This document shows positions 2,297 through 48,330 of a stretch of 64,000 bases of DNA, one piece after another. Where the stretch lies: assembly GCA_032622095.1 (NCBI GenBank), contig CP136067.1, positions 57,019,899 to 57,083,898 of the forward strand. The letters are read 5' to 3'. Both the position numbers and the translations under genes were made by a program. Each line of letters begins with the position of its first letter. The stretch's first letter is position 1. Origin of the DNA: Siphonodentalium dalli. Taxonomy: Eukaryota; Mollusca; Scaphopoda; Gadilida; Siphonodentaliidae. The notes beneath the pieces are model-generated. The model made no database searches and had not been told where the DNA came from. It saw only the letters and a program-made list of their open reading frames with translations.

Positions 2297-2374
2297 TCAT
2301 TAAGTTAGATATATATTTGATCTAATCGTGTATCTATCTTGTGTGAATTGGTTTAATTAATATTTCTATCGAGA

Positions 2375-3235
2375 ATGTTTAACTTAAAGGTTGGATCGTG
2401 GAACATTCATGGTCTGGTTGAAAATGTTGCCGGTGATCGGAACTCTAAAATTTGTCATTCTGAAGTTGTCAATTTGATAAAGGATCACGACATATTTGCA
2501 ATGATTGAGACACATTTAACTCCGCAATTGGCCAATTTAGTGAACTGTAATGGATATTCTTGTAATAACAAATTTAGACCGAAAAGGTATAAAAAGTGTC
2601 GGTACTCCGGTGGAATATCAATTTCCATTAATAAAAAGATTAGAGCAGGTGTTCAATATATGCCAAATAAATGCTGTGATTACCAATGGATTAAACTAAC
2701 CAAATCTGTTTTCCATACTGACAAAGACATTTTCATTTGTTTTGTATATGACAGCGCCGAAAAGTCAACACATTCTTCAGAAATTGACATATTAACTGCA
2801 ATTGAAAATGATCTGGCTGATTTTTCACAGAAGGGTAGCTGTTTATTAATGGGCGATTTTAATGGACACACAGGAAATCTTCCTGATTTCAGCTTAGACA
2901 GTGAAAAAGATGTTAACTATATTTCTTTGCCAAATAATTATTCCTGTGCCGTACATTCTTATAGAAACAATTCAGATACTCGTCCCCAGATGAAGGGGGG
3001 AAACGTTTGCTTCAATTATGCATATCAAGTAAATTAAAAATATTAAATGGTAGAAAACTTGGAGACATTCTCGAAAAAGTAAGATGCTATCAAATGAATG
3101 CAAACTCATCCTCAACAGTCGATTATTGTTTAGCTGACCAAGACTTATTTAATATAATTACTAGTTTTAATGTAGGCAATTTCACAATTTACTGAGACCA
3201 TTGCCCTCTGTCGTGGACAATGACGATTAATAAAC
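2375..3235 (+). pseudogene. LINE-A ORF2 N-terminal AP-endonuclease domain (broken)
   Basis: The ATG at 2375 opens the domain that nicks target DNA to prime reverse transcription. Motifs in order are GSWNIHGL near the N-terminus, AMIETHL with the catalytic Glu, SGGISISINKKI, and GDFNGHTG with the catalytic Asp/Asn (2852-2875). After a frameshift at a G6 run (2995-3000) come VDYCLADQDLFN and the final S-D-H-x-P motif, seen here as stop-D-H-C-P-L because the Ser codon is now TGA (3193-3195). The catalytic His is therefore retained in the code but lies beyond a stop. This is standard for APE-type LINEs and shows inactivity. Confidence 0.92.
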
Positions 3236-3518: not shown

Positions 3519-5660
3519 ATGAAGAAAACTAAGCAAGAGATTGTAGATAAAATTCTCTGCATGGCGGGAAAAGACCCAAAAACTTATTGGGATCTCATTT
3601 CAAAACTACAAAATAAGGCATCACAAGAAACTCTTTATAACATTGATGGACCCACTTGGGTAGAGTTCTTTAAACAATTACTTAATCCATCGAACAATAA
3701 ATGTACTGAACAAAACAAATCCAGCTTAGAACAGAGTGCTAAAATATTCAATGAATTTGCTATTAAAAATGAAGAAATCAGTGTGATCATAAAAAAAACT
3801 ATCAAATAATAAAAGTAGTGGTTTGGACTGTATTTTAAACGAAATGCTAAAGTGTGGCTCTAGTGTTTTTTTGTTACCACTCTTGAATAAATTATTTAAC
3901 CTTATCCTCAATACATGTGTTTATCCAAAACTATGGAGTTCCAGTGTACTACATAATTTTTTTAAGTGGAGATTGTGAGGGTCCAGGAAATTATAGAGGT
4001 ATATCAATAATTAGTTGTGTAGGGAAGTTATTTGGATCTATATTAAATGAGAGATTAATGAGATTCAGGGGAAAAGTAAATCAGTATATCAAATTGGATT
4101 TGAAAAGGTAACCGACCTTCTGATCACGTGTTTACTCTTAAATCACTTATAGATAAGTATGTGATGGAAAAAAAGAGTATAAAATCTGAGCCTCTATTTG
4201 TTTGTTTTATTGACTTAAAAAAACCATTTGACAGTGTTTGGCGTGATGGACTTTGTAGAAAGGTGTACAGCAACAACATCAGTTCTCAAGTAATCAATAT
4301 GATCAAAAGTATGCATAGTAACACTCAAACAGCTATAAAACTACCAAAGGGCTTAATATAATTCATACCATCTTCTACTGGTGTGAGGCAGGGCTATAAT
4401 CTGAGTCCTACGTTATTTAATCTGTATGTAGATGGTGATATTGCAGACATATTCAGTGGTCAATCTAAATTTGATGGCCTTGCCTCTTAAAAAAAACAAG
4501 TTAGTTGTCTAATGTATGCCGATGATATGATCTTAATTAGTAGATCTCCTAAAGGTCTGAAACATTGTTTAGCGTCATTCGTCATTCGTGGTGTCTTGAC
4601 GTTAACCCCAAGAAATCAAAAGTAATGCAAATTTCTAAAGGGGGTCAATTAATTAAGGAATCATTTATGATAAACGGAAGAGTTCTTGACTGTTCATGAA
4701 TACAATTACCTCGGTCTAACTATTTCCTCCTCCGGCACTTATTCAAAAGCAATTTATAGTCTTAAAAACAAGGCCAATAAGGCAATATTTGCTTTAAAAC
4801 AGTGTGTTTTCAGTAATAACTTACCTCCAAAATTAAGCTTAGAGCTTTTTGACAAACTATTATACCTATTTTAACTTATGGTTGTGAAGTTTGGGGGGGT
4901 CTTACTGTGACAATATTGGTGACAGGTTAAATCCTACTTCCTTAACTAATCACTATGATAAAGATGTATATGAAAAATTAGCATTAAGATTCTACAAAAA
5001 TGTATTGGGTATTAATTTAAAAGCATGCAACCTGGCGGCTAGGGGTGAACTAGGCCGGTTTCCAATTACATTTGACATTTTCAGACGTGTAATACGGTAT
5101 TTTTTCCGTTTATGTAGTAGTTCACATGACAGCCTCATTCATGAGGCATATTTATGTAATAATACTATAAATAAAGGGCATATTACCGGTTTAAAAACAA
5201 TCCTAATCAATTGTAATCTGGATGAAGTATGGCATAACCAATATTCTAAAATGCCCCCAAAAAACGGAGAATGACATTATAAAGAATTTTAAATCATGTT
5301 TTGTTAAGCAGTGGCAATGCCAAACAGCTAACTCAGACAAACTCAACAGAACATATGGTGTAATAAAAAAAAGAATTTAAATTAGAAAATTATCTATCTC
5401 AAATGAAACCGCAATGTAGACGGTCATTGTCCAAAATAAGGACAATTGCTCACTCATTACATATTGAAACTGGAAGAAATAAGAGGCCAAATAAAACTGC
5501 GGAAGATAAAAGGACATGTGATTTATGTACAAATGACATTGAAGATGAACAACATCAAATTTTGTCTTGTAAAAAATATTCATATGACAGGAACATTATG
5601 TTCAACTCATTAAATGATTTTATACCTGATTTAATAGCATGTCTTATATTGAAAAGATGA
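3519..5660 (+). pseudogene. LINE-A ORF2 reverse transcriptase and C-terminal zinc-knuckle region (broken)
   Basis: Fragments in several frames give the RT fingers and palm: GNYRGISIISCVGKLFGS (3990-4040), motif A FIDLKKPFDSVW (4207-4242), motif B TGVRQGYNLSPTLFNLY (4378-4430), and motif C YADD at 4515-4526. The thumb follows with YLGLTISSSGTY and ILTYGCEVWGG, split by a frameshift near 4870. The C-terminal part (4891-5660) contains GELGRFPI and a CxxC-x8-H-x4-C knuckle (CDLC...HQILSC, about 5516-5570). At least five frameshifts or stops interrupt it. The span from 2375 corresponds to about 1,095 codons, normal for such an ORF2. Close relatives of this C-terminal part are the fragments at 13.6 and 47.1 kb. 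Confidence 0.93.
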
Positions 5661-6149
5661 TATTAATCTTATCAAGTAATGATGCTGATATATGTATCAT
5701 TGTTGAAAAATTGATTGAAAAGATAATAGATCTCAGAGGTCATATTTGAAGCCCATTGCATGTACATGTAATTAATGTGACAATTGGATAATTATTACTT
5801 ATACACGTTCACATTTCAATGACTTTGTTTTATTTTTGTTTTTGTTTTTTGTTTGTGTGCACATGTGTTTATCACCAAAAAAAAGGGAAAAAAGAGAAGT
5901 TGATATGACATTTATCAATCTAGATTTCCGATCACCTGTCACTCGCATGTTGTATTTACATTTAATTACGATTTCATCATCATTGTTATTATTATAATTT
6001 ATAGCCAAATATGATATGTATGTTTCGTCATGAGCTATTAATAAAATTTCAAACTTTAAACTTCAAAACAAACAGAAACCTGACCCTTCAACACGGAGTA
6101 ACCAATTCACTACGTAGACGCCAAAAGCCAGCCTAGAATGGGCACTCAA

Positions 6150-29983: not shown

Positions 29984-31144
29984 TTAATGTGTCACGAATG
30001 ACAAACACTATATAGAAAAGCTTTAGTTGAGGCCAGTCTGGATGCTAGGATTTGCGATTTTCTTGTTCGAATTTCAAAATTTTCTCACACCGGCCGAACA
30101 ACGATGGTCAGCTCAGTGGTGTCGTGGTCTCTTGTCCGTAGCCGTGTGCAATTGTATGGAGTTAGACCACTAGATATTAGGATTTATGCAATGTTTCAGG
30201 TTAAAATATCTGAATGTTCTCATACCCACGCTGGTCATCCGTGTAACGAGGACCCGGATAAGTAACGACGGACGCGACTAGTCCCTCGTGATTTCCATGA
30301 GCGATGACTTCAGGTAGGTACACACATATCGTTATTATAATACCTTGTCGGTTTAAGCAGACGATTTTGTTCTATTATTATCGTTAACAATAGTTGGTTC
30401 TCCAATTACAACTTGTTATGTCATGCTGGATTAGATATTTTAGCATCATTGGTGACACTAAACTATGAGGTTTCGATTTATCGAAGAAAATATGTTCAAA
30501 TAACTAATGAAAATTCAGAAATACGAAACCTCCTCTCTAATATATGTTGTCATGCCGGATGATGTGTGTATATATACCGTTCACATATATAACATACCGT
30601 AGAAATTTCAGGATTGCTATAGATGCAAGTAAAATGGACTTTTATTCGCGTTTCCAGCAACTTTGGAAAGTAACGAGGACCCGTTGAATTTTCTGTGGGA
30701 AAGTAACTGGACGCGAAAATTTGTAACGACGGACGCGTTTTTGTTTCTCAGAAATATCTACCTTCACATGATATGTCATGGGCATATATGGTAATGTTTG
30801 AAAAACAATAAAGGTAAAATATTTAGGATATGTCCAATTAATAATCAGATTTTATTTTTGCACAACATATTGAGAAATATACTATAACACACCGGGGCGT
30901 GTCCTTATCGTCTCCTTTCGGGCGGGTGATGCATGTCGATCTGGATTTTTCCAACTGTACCCCCTTGAAACAAACCAAACACTCCTAAAAGTTCTCAAAA
31001 TTACATTTGCACCCATTACATAAACAATAGCCATGAATGAGACGGCGCGTCTTGTTATTTATAAATTCCTATTTTTCATTTGCAGGCGGAGAAATATTAG
31101 TGCCTATTGAAGGCGAATTCCTGGAAGTCGATGACAGGGGTGCA

Positions 31145-31205
31145 TGACGTTTCGGCACCTGGACGTTTCGGCACCTGGTTTTCTGGACGTTTCGGCACCT
31201 GAATT
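31145..31205 (+). repeat. 16-bp minisatellite GACGTTTCGGCACCTG
   Basis: Three copies, two adjacent (from 31147 and 31163) and a third after TTTTCTG. Located inside the 52-bp-TIR element. Confidence 0.9.
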
Positions 31206-31996
31206 TTCTGCACTTGTTTGTGTCGGCCCAGGTTTTTGGACGGTTTGGCCTTTCTAGAGGCCAACGCCCATGAATTCTCTCAGATCGACGTCCACTGCAC
31301 CGAGACAAGCAGACGAGACGACTGCTATTCAGTGCTCCGAGCCACAGACAAACGATGTACCATCCAACATCAGACTCGATCGATTTGTCTTAGACTTCGA
31401 TCGAGGCTGGAATGTGGCAGGCCATTCGACAGCGTTTTCCGGGGTACCCGATTCAAGGTTGTTCCTTCCACTGGTCATAAGCTGTGTTCAAGATGATTGA
31501 CAATAATTGTTCAAAGAATACCAAACAAAACAGAGAAGAAAACTCATGTATTCGCTCTGACAAATACTGTTTTCAAATAAACGCTCTTTATTTATACCAT
31601 ATCAGGAATAGACTAACATGGAACGCTCTTTTCCTGAAAGCTTCTGTTGGCTTGTATATCCACACCTGGAGACAGTGCTACATGCATGTTCATGACATGT
31701 TGTGATAACAGTGCTATTCCGTTGAGTATTCGTTCCTTGTACGACTTGTGCATTTTATACGTTCACAATCGCTACCATCCATTCCACCCAGTGTTTGATT
31801 TTGTTACCATGTTACATGTTTATCACATTTTATTGAAATAAAGAATACAAAAAAAAATTTAGTCTTTAATTTCGTTGGTCCGATAATTAGCAGCCTAGCT
31901 TCCCGGTGACACCGCCTTCTTGTGCTGGTAACCATCAGTGCCACGAATGTGGAAGAAATATATAAACCTGCAATAATTACGGCAACATTCACTTTC

Positions 31997-32966
31997 TCAT
32001 ATAAAAGACAAGCCAATGTCGTGTATAACTATCTTGTCATAAACGTTTCCGGTCGAGTGACGAATACAGGGCTCACAGATCTGGCCACCACCATAATGTT
32101 CTCTGCGAGAAGTGTGTGATACAGATCCTCTATCGTCAGGGTTGTCTAAAATGCACCGAGACCCCCTACACCCAGACATCAACCTCAGAAATTTGCCACG
32201 AAAAAGGCGATATGCAGTCTGCCAGAATATCCGGATATCTCATCTGAGATGTATTGGAGCACTGGAACCAACGGACAACGTCAAGTAGAAGGTTGTATGC
32301 TACGCTGCTCGTTGGAAATGTTCCCCATGCTATTAGTTGACAAACAACTTTAAATATATGTGTGTGTCCACACTCAGTCAGTCGGCGATATAATGTTTGT
32401 AATACGTTATCAAGCTGCATACGGAAGGTGTCGAAATCCAGTGACTCTGGTTCTTTATCAGGGCTGGTGTTGTTGCCACTGTTGATGTTAGTGATCTCGG
32501 CACTGTCCGAGTTGCAGCTGCTGCAGTGTACATGACTAACGACGTTGTCGATGTTGTTGTTGCTGTTTGTGTTGCTATTATTGGTGGTCTTATGGTCGTA
32601 GGTGTTGTTTATTTCATACTGATGGTCCTGTTTGTTCGTTGTAATTTTTCTTTTCTTTATGGCATTTGTATGTCGGTGAATGATGTTATTGTCGCTGGAT
32701 AATATTATTTCTTTGCTGTTGTCCGATGGAATTATTCCTGGGTGGCTTATTTTTTTATATACAAACTTTCCTGTTTTATTGTTGAGATTGAATTCCGTGT
32801 TCGGGTGTGATGTGGTGGCATGGTCAACCGTATCAGCCAAAGTGGTGAATGTCAGTTTGCAGGTGTAACATCGGAATGGGGTAGCTGTTGTGTTGTCCAT
32901 TCCTGTAGAATAAGAGAATGCAAGCGTTAGACTGTATTTCATTTGCGACCCCTTGGAATTTTCCAT
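31997..32966 (-). pseudogene. C2H2-finger protein encoded by the 52-bp-TIR transposon
   Basis: A frame of 266 codons starts with ATG at 32966. A possible splice acceptor, CTCTTATTCTACAG, just before a second Met (32899) offers an alternative start. Residues C33, C36, H49 and H54 form one C2H2 finger (CYTC ... HATTSH). An Asn-rich linker and an HCSSC follow. The next block (CQLIAWGTFPTSSVAYNLLL, DVVRWFQCSNTSQMRY) leads, after a frameshift near 32225, into FWQTAYRLFRGKFLRLMSG. From memory, uncharacterised bivalve, coral and lancelet proteins combine an N-terminal finger with a segment like this last block. They are not characterised biochemically to my knowledge. The frameshift and early stop suggest decay despite the perfect TIRs, so the element may be mobilised in trans. 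Confidence 0.75.
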
Positions 32967-34846
32967 CTAATCTCTCAAATCTCACACTGGTTATAATAAA
33001 TCGATAACTTAACAAGTCTTATATGGTTTGGACATTCTATAAGGCCTGAAATGTTCAACAACACATTTACTGTTTCAGTATCACAACATGCCTGCTGGCA
33101 TGGTTAGTTATCTCCACACACGTGTAAATTGCATCAGGGTCCCATATTAGCTTGAGTGATAATATGTCGCCGACGGCTAGGGTCCGAAATCCACCCAGCC
33201 ACGTGTCTATCGATAGAAAACATTCATATACACTCTTAGTTGTGCAACGAGAAACAGAATAATGGTGAGAGGAAGCACCAAAGTCTCCTGAAAACGTTTC
33301 GTCTGTTTAAAATTTGCTGCGAAACAGATGGTTAACAATGTGACAAATAATGGTAAAACACATAAACATGTGATTCCTTATACATTCAAAACATTCATGT
33401 TTCTAAATAAATTGTTTGTCGGAATATTCGCGTCTGCGGTTACTCAATGTGATTTCTAAAGCGCGTCCAACGTTACAGGATAACGGGTCCTCGTTACTCG
33501 TTGATAATGTTAAATAGTCGAATTGCTAGAAACTGGTTGCTTGGCGATGGTTGTGTTGCTTATATTTCAATGACAGGGATCCCGGCGATACCTGAACGTC
33601 ATGAATTGTTCAGATTTGCACGTGATAACATTATATATTGGGTCAATTTGCGTGCAATTTCAGGATTTTGCAATAACTTTCCTCTTTATACATTAATTGT
33701 GGACACGTTGACATCAATTTAGCACGCACCGATTTAGACTAATATTGTCCCAAAACACTACGCACACTAACACATAGGTAGATTAATTTTAAAGGCATTT
33801 AATCACCGTTTTTCTTGACCAGCCCGAGACCATTTCTTCACATGGAAGTCGCGTCCGTCGTTACTTATCCGGGTCCTCGTTACACGGATGACCAGCGTGA
33901 TACCGGGAATATAGAACCATGGTTTATGAAGATATAGGATATTAGGCCTAAACACTAAGGTGCAAGGGGGTGCAAATGGAAGAATGCAAAACTTGTGGTC
34001 GGTCTGATTCTAACTCAAGGGGGTGCAGTTGGAATTTCCCAAGGTTGACACCCCCAACGGAAACCCTCTAGCCACGTCTCTGTGTGTACGACCCATTTCG
34101 TTCCTGCTTTGTCAGGTCTCACGCTCTCACACGCTCTCACTGCGTTTCCTCCACGCCGTACACGCTCTTAACGCGTTCAAGTCGTTGTCATTGCGTTGTT
34201 AGTACGCTTTGCGCTGTCATGGCGACGGTAATACGCCTGGTCAGAACGCCGAACCTCTGCGCTTGTTTTGTGCCCCTCTCCCGTCCTATCCAGTGTCCAC
34301 TGCGTCACCAATACGTTCTTGGATACCTTACTGCGCTTTGCTTGGCGCTTTGATTATTTTTCAGCGCAATGCAAGCGCCGGCCTGATCGCAGCGGAGTGT
34401 GACAGTAGTTTAATCGGACAGGTAATTTATTGCGGAGTGTTGGGTATTTTCCCCACAACCTAAAAACTGACTATGACTGGAGAACGCAGGAGGCGCTATC
34501 TATACTCTCCGCGCCCGCGCAGAGAGCGTTTTACGAACTTATTGAGAACGTACTAGCATCACAATGACAGCGACTTGACCGCACTAAGAGCGTGAGACTT
34601 GACAAAGTAGGAACGCAATAGGAGCATACTTTGTTTTAAAAGTTTGACAATTTTCTACAGTTTTCGGCGCTCCTCCTGCGTGTTAGTCATATGTTGGTAC
34701 TTTTGCAGCGCAATGAGAGCGCCGGCCTGAGTGTGACAGGGGTTTAAGGTCCCGTGCTTCATGACTGTACAAACTCGATCGTCCGGCCGCATCCGCCGCG
34801 CCGCGTTGGCCGCGCCGCGCCCATGTATAAGCAGCTTAATTATAAC

Positions 34847-47059: not shown

Positions 47060-48330
47060 TATATATATATATATATATATATCTTTATTGCCTCCATTAA
47101 GGAGAGTGGTTGTTTATACAATTCTATTTACATTTGGATAATCAAAATACTACACAATACAGTTATATACATTTGAGACGATGGATATGACTAATGCGCT
47201 AATTGCAGACAGTCGACGATAAAGTTTTATACCCTCACAAGTTGGCACAAGTGATACAAAAACAAGGCAGTGTCGATGATAACGCTGTCCAGTGACACTG
47301 CTATTTCTGTGTGAATGGGCACAGGTTGACCTCCCAGTATGAGGGCCATCAGTTGCTGCATAGATAATGAGTCCAGGACGAGGTATGATGCCATATTTAT
47401 CAATAATCAGATGCCAGTAACAGTTTCGAATTTGGACTATAACATCAGCTTGGCAGGACCAAAGTACATGCGAAAGCTCATAGTCAAACCGTGAATCGCA
47501 CAATCTGCATACAGAGTTGTTGTCGTAGGTTGGCTTGTTAAGTAGCCAGGCAAGATTTCTTAGCGACATCGATAGAAGTCGGTTTGATTTTAATATCCGC
47601 CATATGTTCCACATATCGTTAGGGTAAGGATGACATCGAAGAACAAGAGCGAAATTTGGATTGTCTCTAGCTGATTGATGCCAGAAAGCACAATAGTCCG
47701 CCTCGACACTGGAATGGACGAGTTTCTTCCAGACATCATTCCAGATATCCACATATAAGCGCATATGGTCAAACAGTTTATATTTCTCCAACAGGGGAAT
47801 TATATCAGAGACGAATCCGGACATTACATTTCCGTACAAAAGATGCTGGTATACCCTGCAGAGGAAGAGCTTGAGAGGCACCTGATGGTGTGTCGGTAGA
47901 TGGATGAGTTTTTCCAAGAAGCACAACTTGCGAATGTGGATTTGTCGTTCGATTGGTAACACTCCTAAGAGGCCAAGTGACATATTAGTTGAAGCACGGG
48001 AATGTAAAGACTGTGCGTGTTTTACACAGTTCCGGAATGAACGCTCTAGATTGAGAAGAGCAGTGTTGTTGTTCATGGGAAGTAACTCGCATCCATATAG
48101 TGCCTTTGGTAGCACAACACATTTTAACAGTTTTGATATGACTGCTGGGGAACACGACTTGACAGCTTCCTTTCCTGCTATCGCGAAATATGTGTTCCTA
48201 AGTTTGTTCGACATAGCTGCGACCTGACTGTGGCACCGTTGAGTTTGCTTTGAAGGATTCCTAGGTGCATGCATTCCTGCTCCTCGGATAGAACGTTTTT
48301 TCCAATGGTCCATACCATAGGCGGATTAAT
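47060..48330 (-). pseudogene. LINE-D ORF2 3' fragment with (AT)n tail
   Basis: A 387-codon frame (48313-47150) is the longest in the window. It contains SKLLKCVVLPKALYGCELL (the thumb 'LYGCE' motif), LLGVLPIERQIHIRKLCFLE, and a C-terminal CRLCDSRFDYELSHVLWSC knuckle (CxxC ... H-x4-C). The frame just upstream gives PPMVWTIGKNVLSEEQECMHLGI, joined by one frameshift near 48240. On the minus strand AATAAAG precedes the (AT)n tail at 47057-47082. The copy is 5'-truncated after the palm domain. It is the least decayed LINE here. No target duplication is visible because both junctions abut other repeats. Confidence 0.9.

Follow-up and report, generated by a model that had tools for sequence, protein, structure and literature searches.

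Which enzyme moves the DNA transposon at 30227-33899 of the stretch analysed here, and is the C2H2 protein that it encodes part of that enzyme or a passenger? The stretch (the window) comprises 64,000 nucleotides of contig CP136067.1 of the scaphopod Siphonodentalium dalli, and the transposon occupies 3,673 base pairs (bp) of it. Comparison with other loci of the same genome, numbered with the prefix L below, indicates that the window element is very probably an internal-deletion copy of a two-gene cut-and-paste transposon, whose P/THAP9-type RNase H transposase carries a YqaJ insertion. The two genes are called gene 1 (the transposase) and gene 2 (a second C2H2 protein).

The terminal inverted repeats (TIRs) of the window element are complementary at 53/53 positions. 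A first-pass annotation of the window had reported perfect repeats of 52 bp; the perfect match held, and the length is corrected to 53 bp. The ATACC that it had noted on both flanks is present (Table 1), as are two subterminal motifs occurring twice per end. Motif m1 (GTAACGAGGACCC) is located at 30243, 30670, 33485, and 33871, and motif m2 (GTAACGACGGACGCG) at 30262, 30723, and 33850, and with 2 mismatches at 33462. The two motifs lie within each repeat and again approximately 400-500 bp inside the ends in all eight copies scanned, the window included (≤2 mismatches).

The first 29 bp of the TIR were searched against the 2.23-Gb genome with ≤3 mismatches. There were 151 forward and 137 reverse matches (288 ends), and the reversed query gave 0 + 0; hence, the matches are not due to chance. 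The window family was read at both ends in 21 copies (20 fetched copies and the window), which were chosen among 100 listed of the 288 ends. An exact 5-bp duplication was found in 20 of the 21; the exception, L017, has none. Eighteen different sequences occur at the 20 duplicated sites, and the left flanks most alike between two copies are identical at 35/100 positions. The claim of a recently moving DNA transposon with a 5-bp target duplication, made from the window alone, was thereby confirmed in the genome.

The copies fall into three structural classes with common ends. The 2.6-kb class includes L001-L008, and L015 with an insertion. The window-like class includes the window, L011, L013, and, with insertions, L018. 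Type B, of about 3.7-3.9 kb, includes L009, L010, L012, and L014, and, with insertions, L016, L017, L019, and L020. The extra length of the longer copies L016-L020 (5.9-9.7 kb) is added DNA and not gene 1; the frames of L020 look reverse-transcriptase-like by eye, and L016 is a type-B copy holding a nested element. This nested insertion (L016:2065-6406) has ends T(G/A)TGGCAAGCCGTTTTCACATTTT and an apparent 6-bp duplication, GTGATG. It contains a broken large protein with the blocks VDQQLF..QIQW, GGLHTE, and MHEQNN and no significant Pfam match; the insertion is transposon-like, and the protein represents a further uncharacterised transposase-like family. A repetitive 431-aa (amino acid) frame, SDEENSEAP... 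VAELEQRFGLLESLSRLNKPRAN, lies on the minus strand of L014:1465-2757 and has no Pfam match. Similar frames are seen in the type-B copies L010, L016, and L017.

Inside the window element, tblastn placed gene 2 (plus) and gene 1 (minus, 32123-32966 overall) facing head-on. Such stumps are as expected from the internal deletion of a tail-to-tail gene pair. The open reading frame (ORF) of 266 aa is homologous to the N-termini of L023 (E-value 2e-18), L021 (7e-17), and L027 (8e-15), and the gene-2 remnant has a longer counterpart in L027. At least 150 genome matches to the ORF were found among the matches listed (144 of 877 candidates scored). For the GKF block (GKFxRFMxG) at least 150 were found (150 of 487 candidates scored), some in frames of up to 804 aa. 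A Pfam scan of the window frames alone gave no significant match. The first-pass annotation had described a C2H2 protein with a FWQTAYRLFRGKFLRLMSG block; the protein is this ORF, and the block belongs instead to an overlapping shifted frame (31997-32239, minus). More of gene 2 is retained in type-B copies: L010, L016, and L020 are 29-32% identical to gene 2 of L027 (best E-value 6e-21, L016), and L014 is 38% identical over 52 aa. The segment at 31138-31890 is present, whole or in part, in the window-like copies L011, L013, and L018 and missing from the type-B and 2.6-kb copies compared. It terminates in AATAAAGAATACAAAAAAAAA, an AATAAA signal with an A-run, and is therefore perhaps a retroposed insertion.

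Table 1. Features of the window element, with positions in the window.
Feature	Position	Strand	Basis
Left target-site duplication, ATACC	30222-30226		Sequence; 5-bp duplications in 20/21 copies
Left TIR, 53 bp, starts CACGCTGGTCATCC	30227-30279	+	100% complementary to right arm
First motif pair, inside TIR: m1 30243-30255, m2 30262-30276; putative binding sites for transposase or gene-2 protein	30243-30276	+	Motif scan
Second, subterminal motif pair: m1 30670-30682, m2 30723-30737	30670-30737	+	Motif scan
Segment of ~750 bp	31138-31890		Alignment gaps against other copies
Gene-2 remnant (multi-C2H2) with stops/frameshifts, QCHECG.. to SSDEYRAHRSGHHHNVLCEKC	31924-32115	+	tblastn with L016 gene-2 protein, E-values 2e-10 and 2e-9
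Approximate deletion junction, gene-2/gene-1 stumps head-on	32116-32123		tblastn placement
Gene-1 remnant, shifted frame, FWQTAYRLFRGKFLRLMSG...LDNPDDRGS	32123-32239	-	53% to L034 over 36 aa; 41% to L024 over 46 aa
Gene-1 N-terminal ORF, 266 aa: C2H2-like finger and beginning of GKFxRFMxG domain	32166-32966	-	ORF list; homology
Right-end subterminal motif pair: m2 with 2 mismatches, m1 exact	33462-33497	-	Motif scan
Right TIR, 53 bp	33847-33899	-	Complementarity to left arm
Right target-site duplication, ATACC	33900-33904		Sequence

Since the internal deletion leaves only the two stumps, the window copy must be non-autonomous: unable to make the enzyme, it must be moved in trans by one encoded elsewhere. 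The stump itself could still have a function. KP, a truncated P-element product, is a repressor, and the truncated C2H2 protein may likewise have been retained to repress its own transposon, a possibility compatible with the deletion reading. The 2.6-kb class is uniform (pairwise divergence 0.46-0.85%, mean 0.66%, eight copies) and must be young given such small differences, and its 265-aa frame is intact in 5/8 copies. However, youth alone suffices to explain these open frames, and no strong constraint was detected on the window ORF stump, for which omega is 0.82 against the 2.6-kb class and 1.58 against L011. We therefore regard retention as a repressor as unlikely.

The tail-to-tail pair is seen in L027, which together with its left neighbour L036 forms a 10,164-bp element (G000:C4:259159692-259169855). 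Gene 2 (a 245-aa C2H2 array) is on the plus strand and gene 1 (frames of 580 + 906 aa) on the minus strand. The repeats of L027, of about 64 bp, are 86% alike and start with CAC[CG]CTGGTCATCC. The terminal 14 bp of the window element recur in the L027 family, where one end is identical and the other has a single mismatch, and the two families share terminal CACGCTGGTCATCC, both genes, and the gene orientation. All 10 chosen pairs of the L027 family have 5-bp duplications (10/11 counting L027), and two pairs of 8-9 kb, one of them L084, overlap gene-1 matches. The L023 family starts with CACCCTATGTG. Its 5-bp duplications were found in 7/9 pairs, with 4 bp in one pair and none in another; two pairs have the same flanks and represent a single event, which leaves 6 independent cases. 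L023 itself has only 3 matching flank bases, and the family total with it is 7/10. The ends of L021 and L022 that are intact start with CACGCCCG. These two copies lie 28 kb apart on C6, and each is flanked by GTCCG on one side, the right in one copy and the left in the other, which suggests an exchange between them. An exact-seed search for ends in L021-L028 yielded mostly internal repeats. L025 has frames of mariner-like appearance, judged by eye, at 4498-5677, immediately upstream of a gene-1 remnant.

CAC termini occur in the window, L027, L021, and L023 families, and they are also characteristic of Transib and ProtoRAG elements. Membership in the Transib/RAG lineage, as a ProtoRAG-like element, would account for these ends, for the 5-bp duplications, and for the tail-to-tail genes of L027; ProtoRAG has RAG1-like and RAG2-like genes tail to tail, 5-bp duplications, and TIRs (PMC8289069, in excerpt). 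Nevertheless, such membership is highly improbable. No RAG1-type Pfam family, and no RAG1-like or RAG2-like protein, was found among the gene-1 and gene-2 frames scanned, where the sole transposase family reported was PF21787 (P-like). Duplications are GC-biased in ProtoRAG/Transib (PMC8289069, in excerpt), whereas those here are AT-rich, with G or C at 30/100 duplication bases of the 20 window-family sites. The first-pass annotation had set a Transib, CACTA, or Chapaev transposase against its own reading; none was present in the copies read, and the transposase of the relatives is P-like.

In the longer relatives, a similar N-terminus runs on into a YqaJ nuclease and then a long C-terminal part. 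The order in gene 1 is C2H2, GKFxRFMxG, first D, YqaJ nuclease, second D, 'DxxHLxxxIR', and E (ENFF). YqaJ (PF09588), a PD-(D/E)XK nuclease, scored above the Pfam cut-off in seven loci (L026, L029, L030, L034, L042, L044, and L045; best E-value 2.3e-10). SPDG is present in 9/10 loci covering the YqaJ motif, with YPDG in L084. ExK was identified by script in L027, L030, L031, L034, and L084 and by eye in L026, L029, L044, and L045. The P/THAP9-type RNase H domain (PF21787) exceeded its curated cut-off in L030 (E-value 5e-6, 27.3 vs 24.6 bits) and was weaker in L042 (1.7e-4), L031 (3.9e-4), and L026 (0.045). A single frame contains YqaJ and RNase H motifs in three loci: the 1173-aa frame of L029 includes D, D, and E, and those of L042 (1004 aa) and L045 (1013 aa) include both D. 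Third codon positions vary most in 4/4 gene-1 comparisons (3 pairs of loci). The N-terminal C2H2-like finger of gene 1 gave weak scores only (L021, E-value 0.061), and no THAP domain was reported in the gene-1 frames scanned by Pfam.

These frames bear on two other explanations. In the first, the C2H2 protein would be cargo or a gene captured from the host, with the element moved by some unrelated transposase. A complete transposase was indeed seen in 0/21 window-family copies read, and the window ORF is near neutral against the 2.6-kb class (omega 0.82). Yet related N-termini occur in the elements of the window, L021, L023, and L027, for which CAC ends and 5-bp duplications are common features (L021 unclear for the latter). 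That N-terminus is continuous with YqaJ and RNase H motifs in the longer relatives, and the gene-2/gene-1 remnants keep the L027 orientation. The cargo explanation is thus quite improbable, and the C2H2 protein is very likely the N-terminal stump of a transposase of about 1,500 aa. The first-pass annotation had offered either transposition machinery or mobilisation in trans with the protein as cargo; the machinery (a P-like core in longer relatives) and the mobilisation in trans both stand, and the cargo very likely does not. The second explanation is kinship with ISL2EU (PHIS), in which a DDE transposase and a YqaJ nuclease are also combined in one transposon with two genes (PMC4482050, in excerpt). 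ISL2EU elements encode the nuclease as a protein of its own, beside a PIF/Harbinger-related DDE domain; their target duplications are the 2-bp AT, and GG is the usual start of their TIRs (same excerpt). In contrast, gene 1 has YqaJ and RNase H motifs in one frame (L029, L042, and L045), duplications are 5 bp, TIRs start with CAC, and no Harbinger/IS5-type Pfam family was found among the frames scanned. An ISL2EU relative is barely credible.

The P-type core was evaluated by profile comparison, with four THAP9/P-type proteins of the same genome, found via PF21789, as the reference. Gene 1 was represented by segments G (before YqaJ), N (after YqaJ), and C (C-terminal). The segments fall in order on the P/THAP9 template, at columns 224-310, 302-364, and 382-408, with nine template columns shared by G and N. 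VDGK of segment G is aligned to the first-D strand of P, DGQ of segment N to its second D, and 'D..H...IR' of segment C to 'DPPHL.K..RN'. None of 100 column shuffles reached the real score for G or for N. The joined profile without YqaJ had a best local score of 53.9, covering G + N, against a maximum of 25.5 in 60 shuffles. In the sequence alignment, the first D is present in 12/13 rows reaching the site, the second D in 8/9 N segments, and E in 8/8 C segments reaching the site. The region of the P GTP-binding insertion before the catalytic E was present and partly aligned (second local match, probability 1.0), and segment C on its own is weak. From the order of the segments, YqaJ would be inserted inside the RNase H domain, between the first-D and second-D strands. 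Two gene-1 frames were searched against the sequences of solved structures, and no match had an E-value below 0.84. Viral contigs scanned with an alignment of six gene-1 proteins gave 42 pattern hits, with 0 confirmed as a relative.

Several results weigh against the reading of the window element as a deleted P-like transposon. Gene 1 past the GKF block was seen in 0/21 window-family copies, with end pairs of 14.3 and 19.1 kb lying outside the sample. No uninterrupted gene 1 within a duplication-flanked element was found among the elements read: in L084, a 9.2-kb element with the duplication ATACT, gene 1 is spread over four frames and gene 2 over two, the flanks of L027 do not match (TTTAA/TTGGT), and L021 and L022 are without a duplication of their own. 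For L021, L027, and L031, which are split or partial, YqaJ stayed under the cut-off, and it was not reported for the L084 frame. PF21787 was unreported in 6/10 loci (L027, L029, L043, L044, L045, and L084). Individual residues deviate: in L042, the K of ExK is replaced by T and the Q of DGQ by A; L043 has Y at the second D, and L021 has V at the first D. The hhalign probabilities of the lone segments G and C are 8.1 and 5.8 (N, 74.0), and segment C was beaten by 1/100 shuffles, a single outlier. Finally, the gene-2 homology is between C2H2 arrays, which are generally similar among themselves; hence, gene 2 provides a weaker link than gene 1.

The family shares with the P element and THAP9 an RNase H core that is split, the D, D, and E of that core at matching places, and 'D..H(L/I)...(I/L)R' where the insertion region begins. 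Subterminal repeats well inward and many internally deleted copies are further points of likeness (PMC7776569, in excerpt, for the P and zebrafish elements). P elements make a 17-nt (nucleotide) staggered cut per end and 8-bp duplications (same excerpt), whereas the family here has 5-bp duplications. It further differs in its CAC termini, C2H2 in place of THAP, a YqaJ nuclease within the RNase H region, and a second C2H2 gene. We call the family P-like and not P because it has the core of P and differs in duplication length and in THAP. If confirmed, a second nuclease and a 5-bp stagger, as against the 17-nt cut and 8-bp duplications of P, would be a real mechanistic difference. The P-type copies L085-L087 of the same genome have no TIRs amid tandem repeats and so provide no in-genome 8-bp control. 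Ordinary P/THAP9-type transposase frames are present at 75 places in this genome and coexist with the YqaJ-bearing relatives.

A working mechanism can be proposed. In the autonomous form, inverted repeats starting with CAC would enclose two tail-to-tail genes, one for a large DDE transposase (gene 1) and one for a DNA-binding C2H2 protein (gene 2). The paired motifs in each end and about 400 bp inside would most likely serve as binding sites for C2H2 fingers, those of gene 1, of gene 2, or of both. The RNase H site would carry out strand transfer, joining the 3' ends to the target at positions staggered by 5 bp, and such a stagger would produce the 5-bp duplications. Bacterial Tn7 also has 5-bp duplications and uses a PD-(D/E)XK nuclease (TnsA) and a DDE transposase (TnsB) as separate proteins, with TnsA working beside TnsB on the other strand. 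By this working analogy, cleavage or trimming of the other strand at the ends of the transposon probably falls to the YqaJ part.

More tentatively, in a reading that we lean slightly against, the family would form a distinct superfamily, sister to P. One polypeptide would act on the transferred strand through a P-type DDE RNase H site and on the other strand through a PD-(D/E)XK nuclease inserted in that RNase H fold, and the gene-2 finger protein would be an obligate end-binding partner. If so, gene 1 would be a one-chain eukaryotic counterpart of Tn7 TnsA/TnsB, and an altered nuclease geometry would account for duplications having shortened from 8 bp to 5 bp. The gene-2 partner would parallel the RAG1/RAG2-like pair in layout only. 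No description of a P-like transposase paired with YqaJ or with 5-bp duplications was found in the literature searched, with Repbase and named animal genomes outside the search. Within that scope, the suggestion of an undescribed transposition machinery in the first-pass annotation held up; an existing entry under another name is possible.

Elsewhere in the window, 2357-3037 (+) and 47150-48325 (-) resemble, by eye, the endonuclease and reverse-transcriptase ends of non-long-terminal-repeat retrotransposons.

For this genome, the finding unites the at least 150 GKF-block places (150 of 487 candidates scored) in one mobile family. Changes in YqaJ gene number have been reported for bivalves (PMC10225492; PMC7826175, in excerpt), and part of these could stem from the gene-1 family. 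For P-like transposases, the family places the P-type catalytic core in a new setting, with an inserted nuclease, other fingers, and a changed cut spacing. Comparison can now be used to test what determines the target stagger in these transposases and how the second strand is cut.

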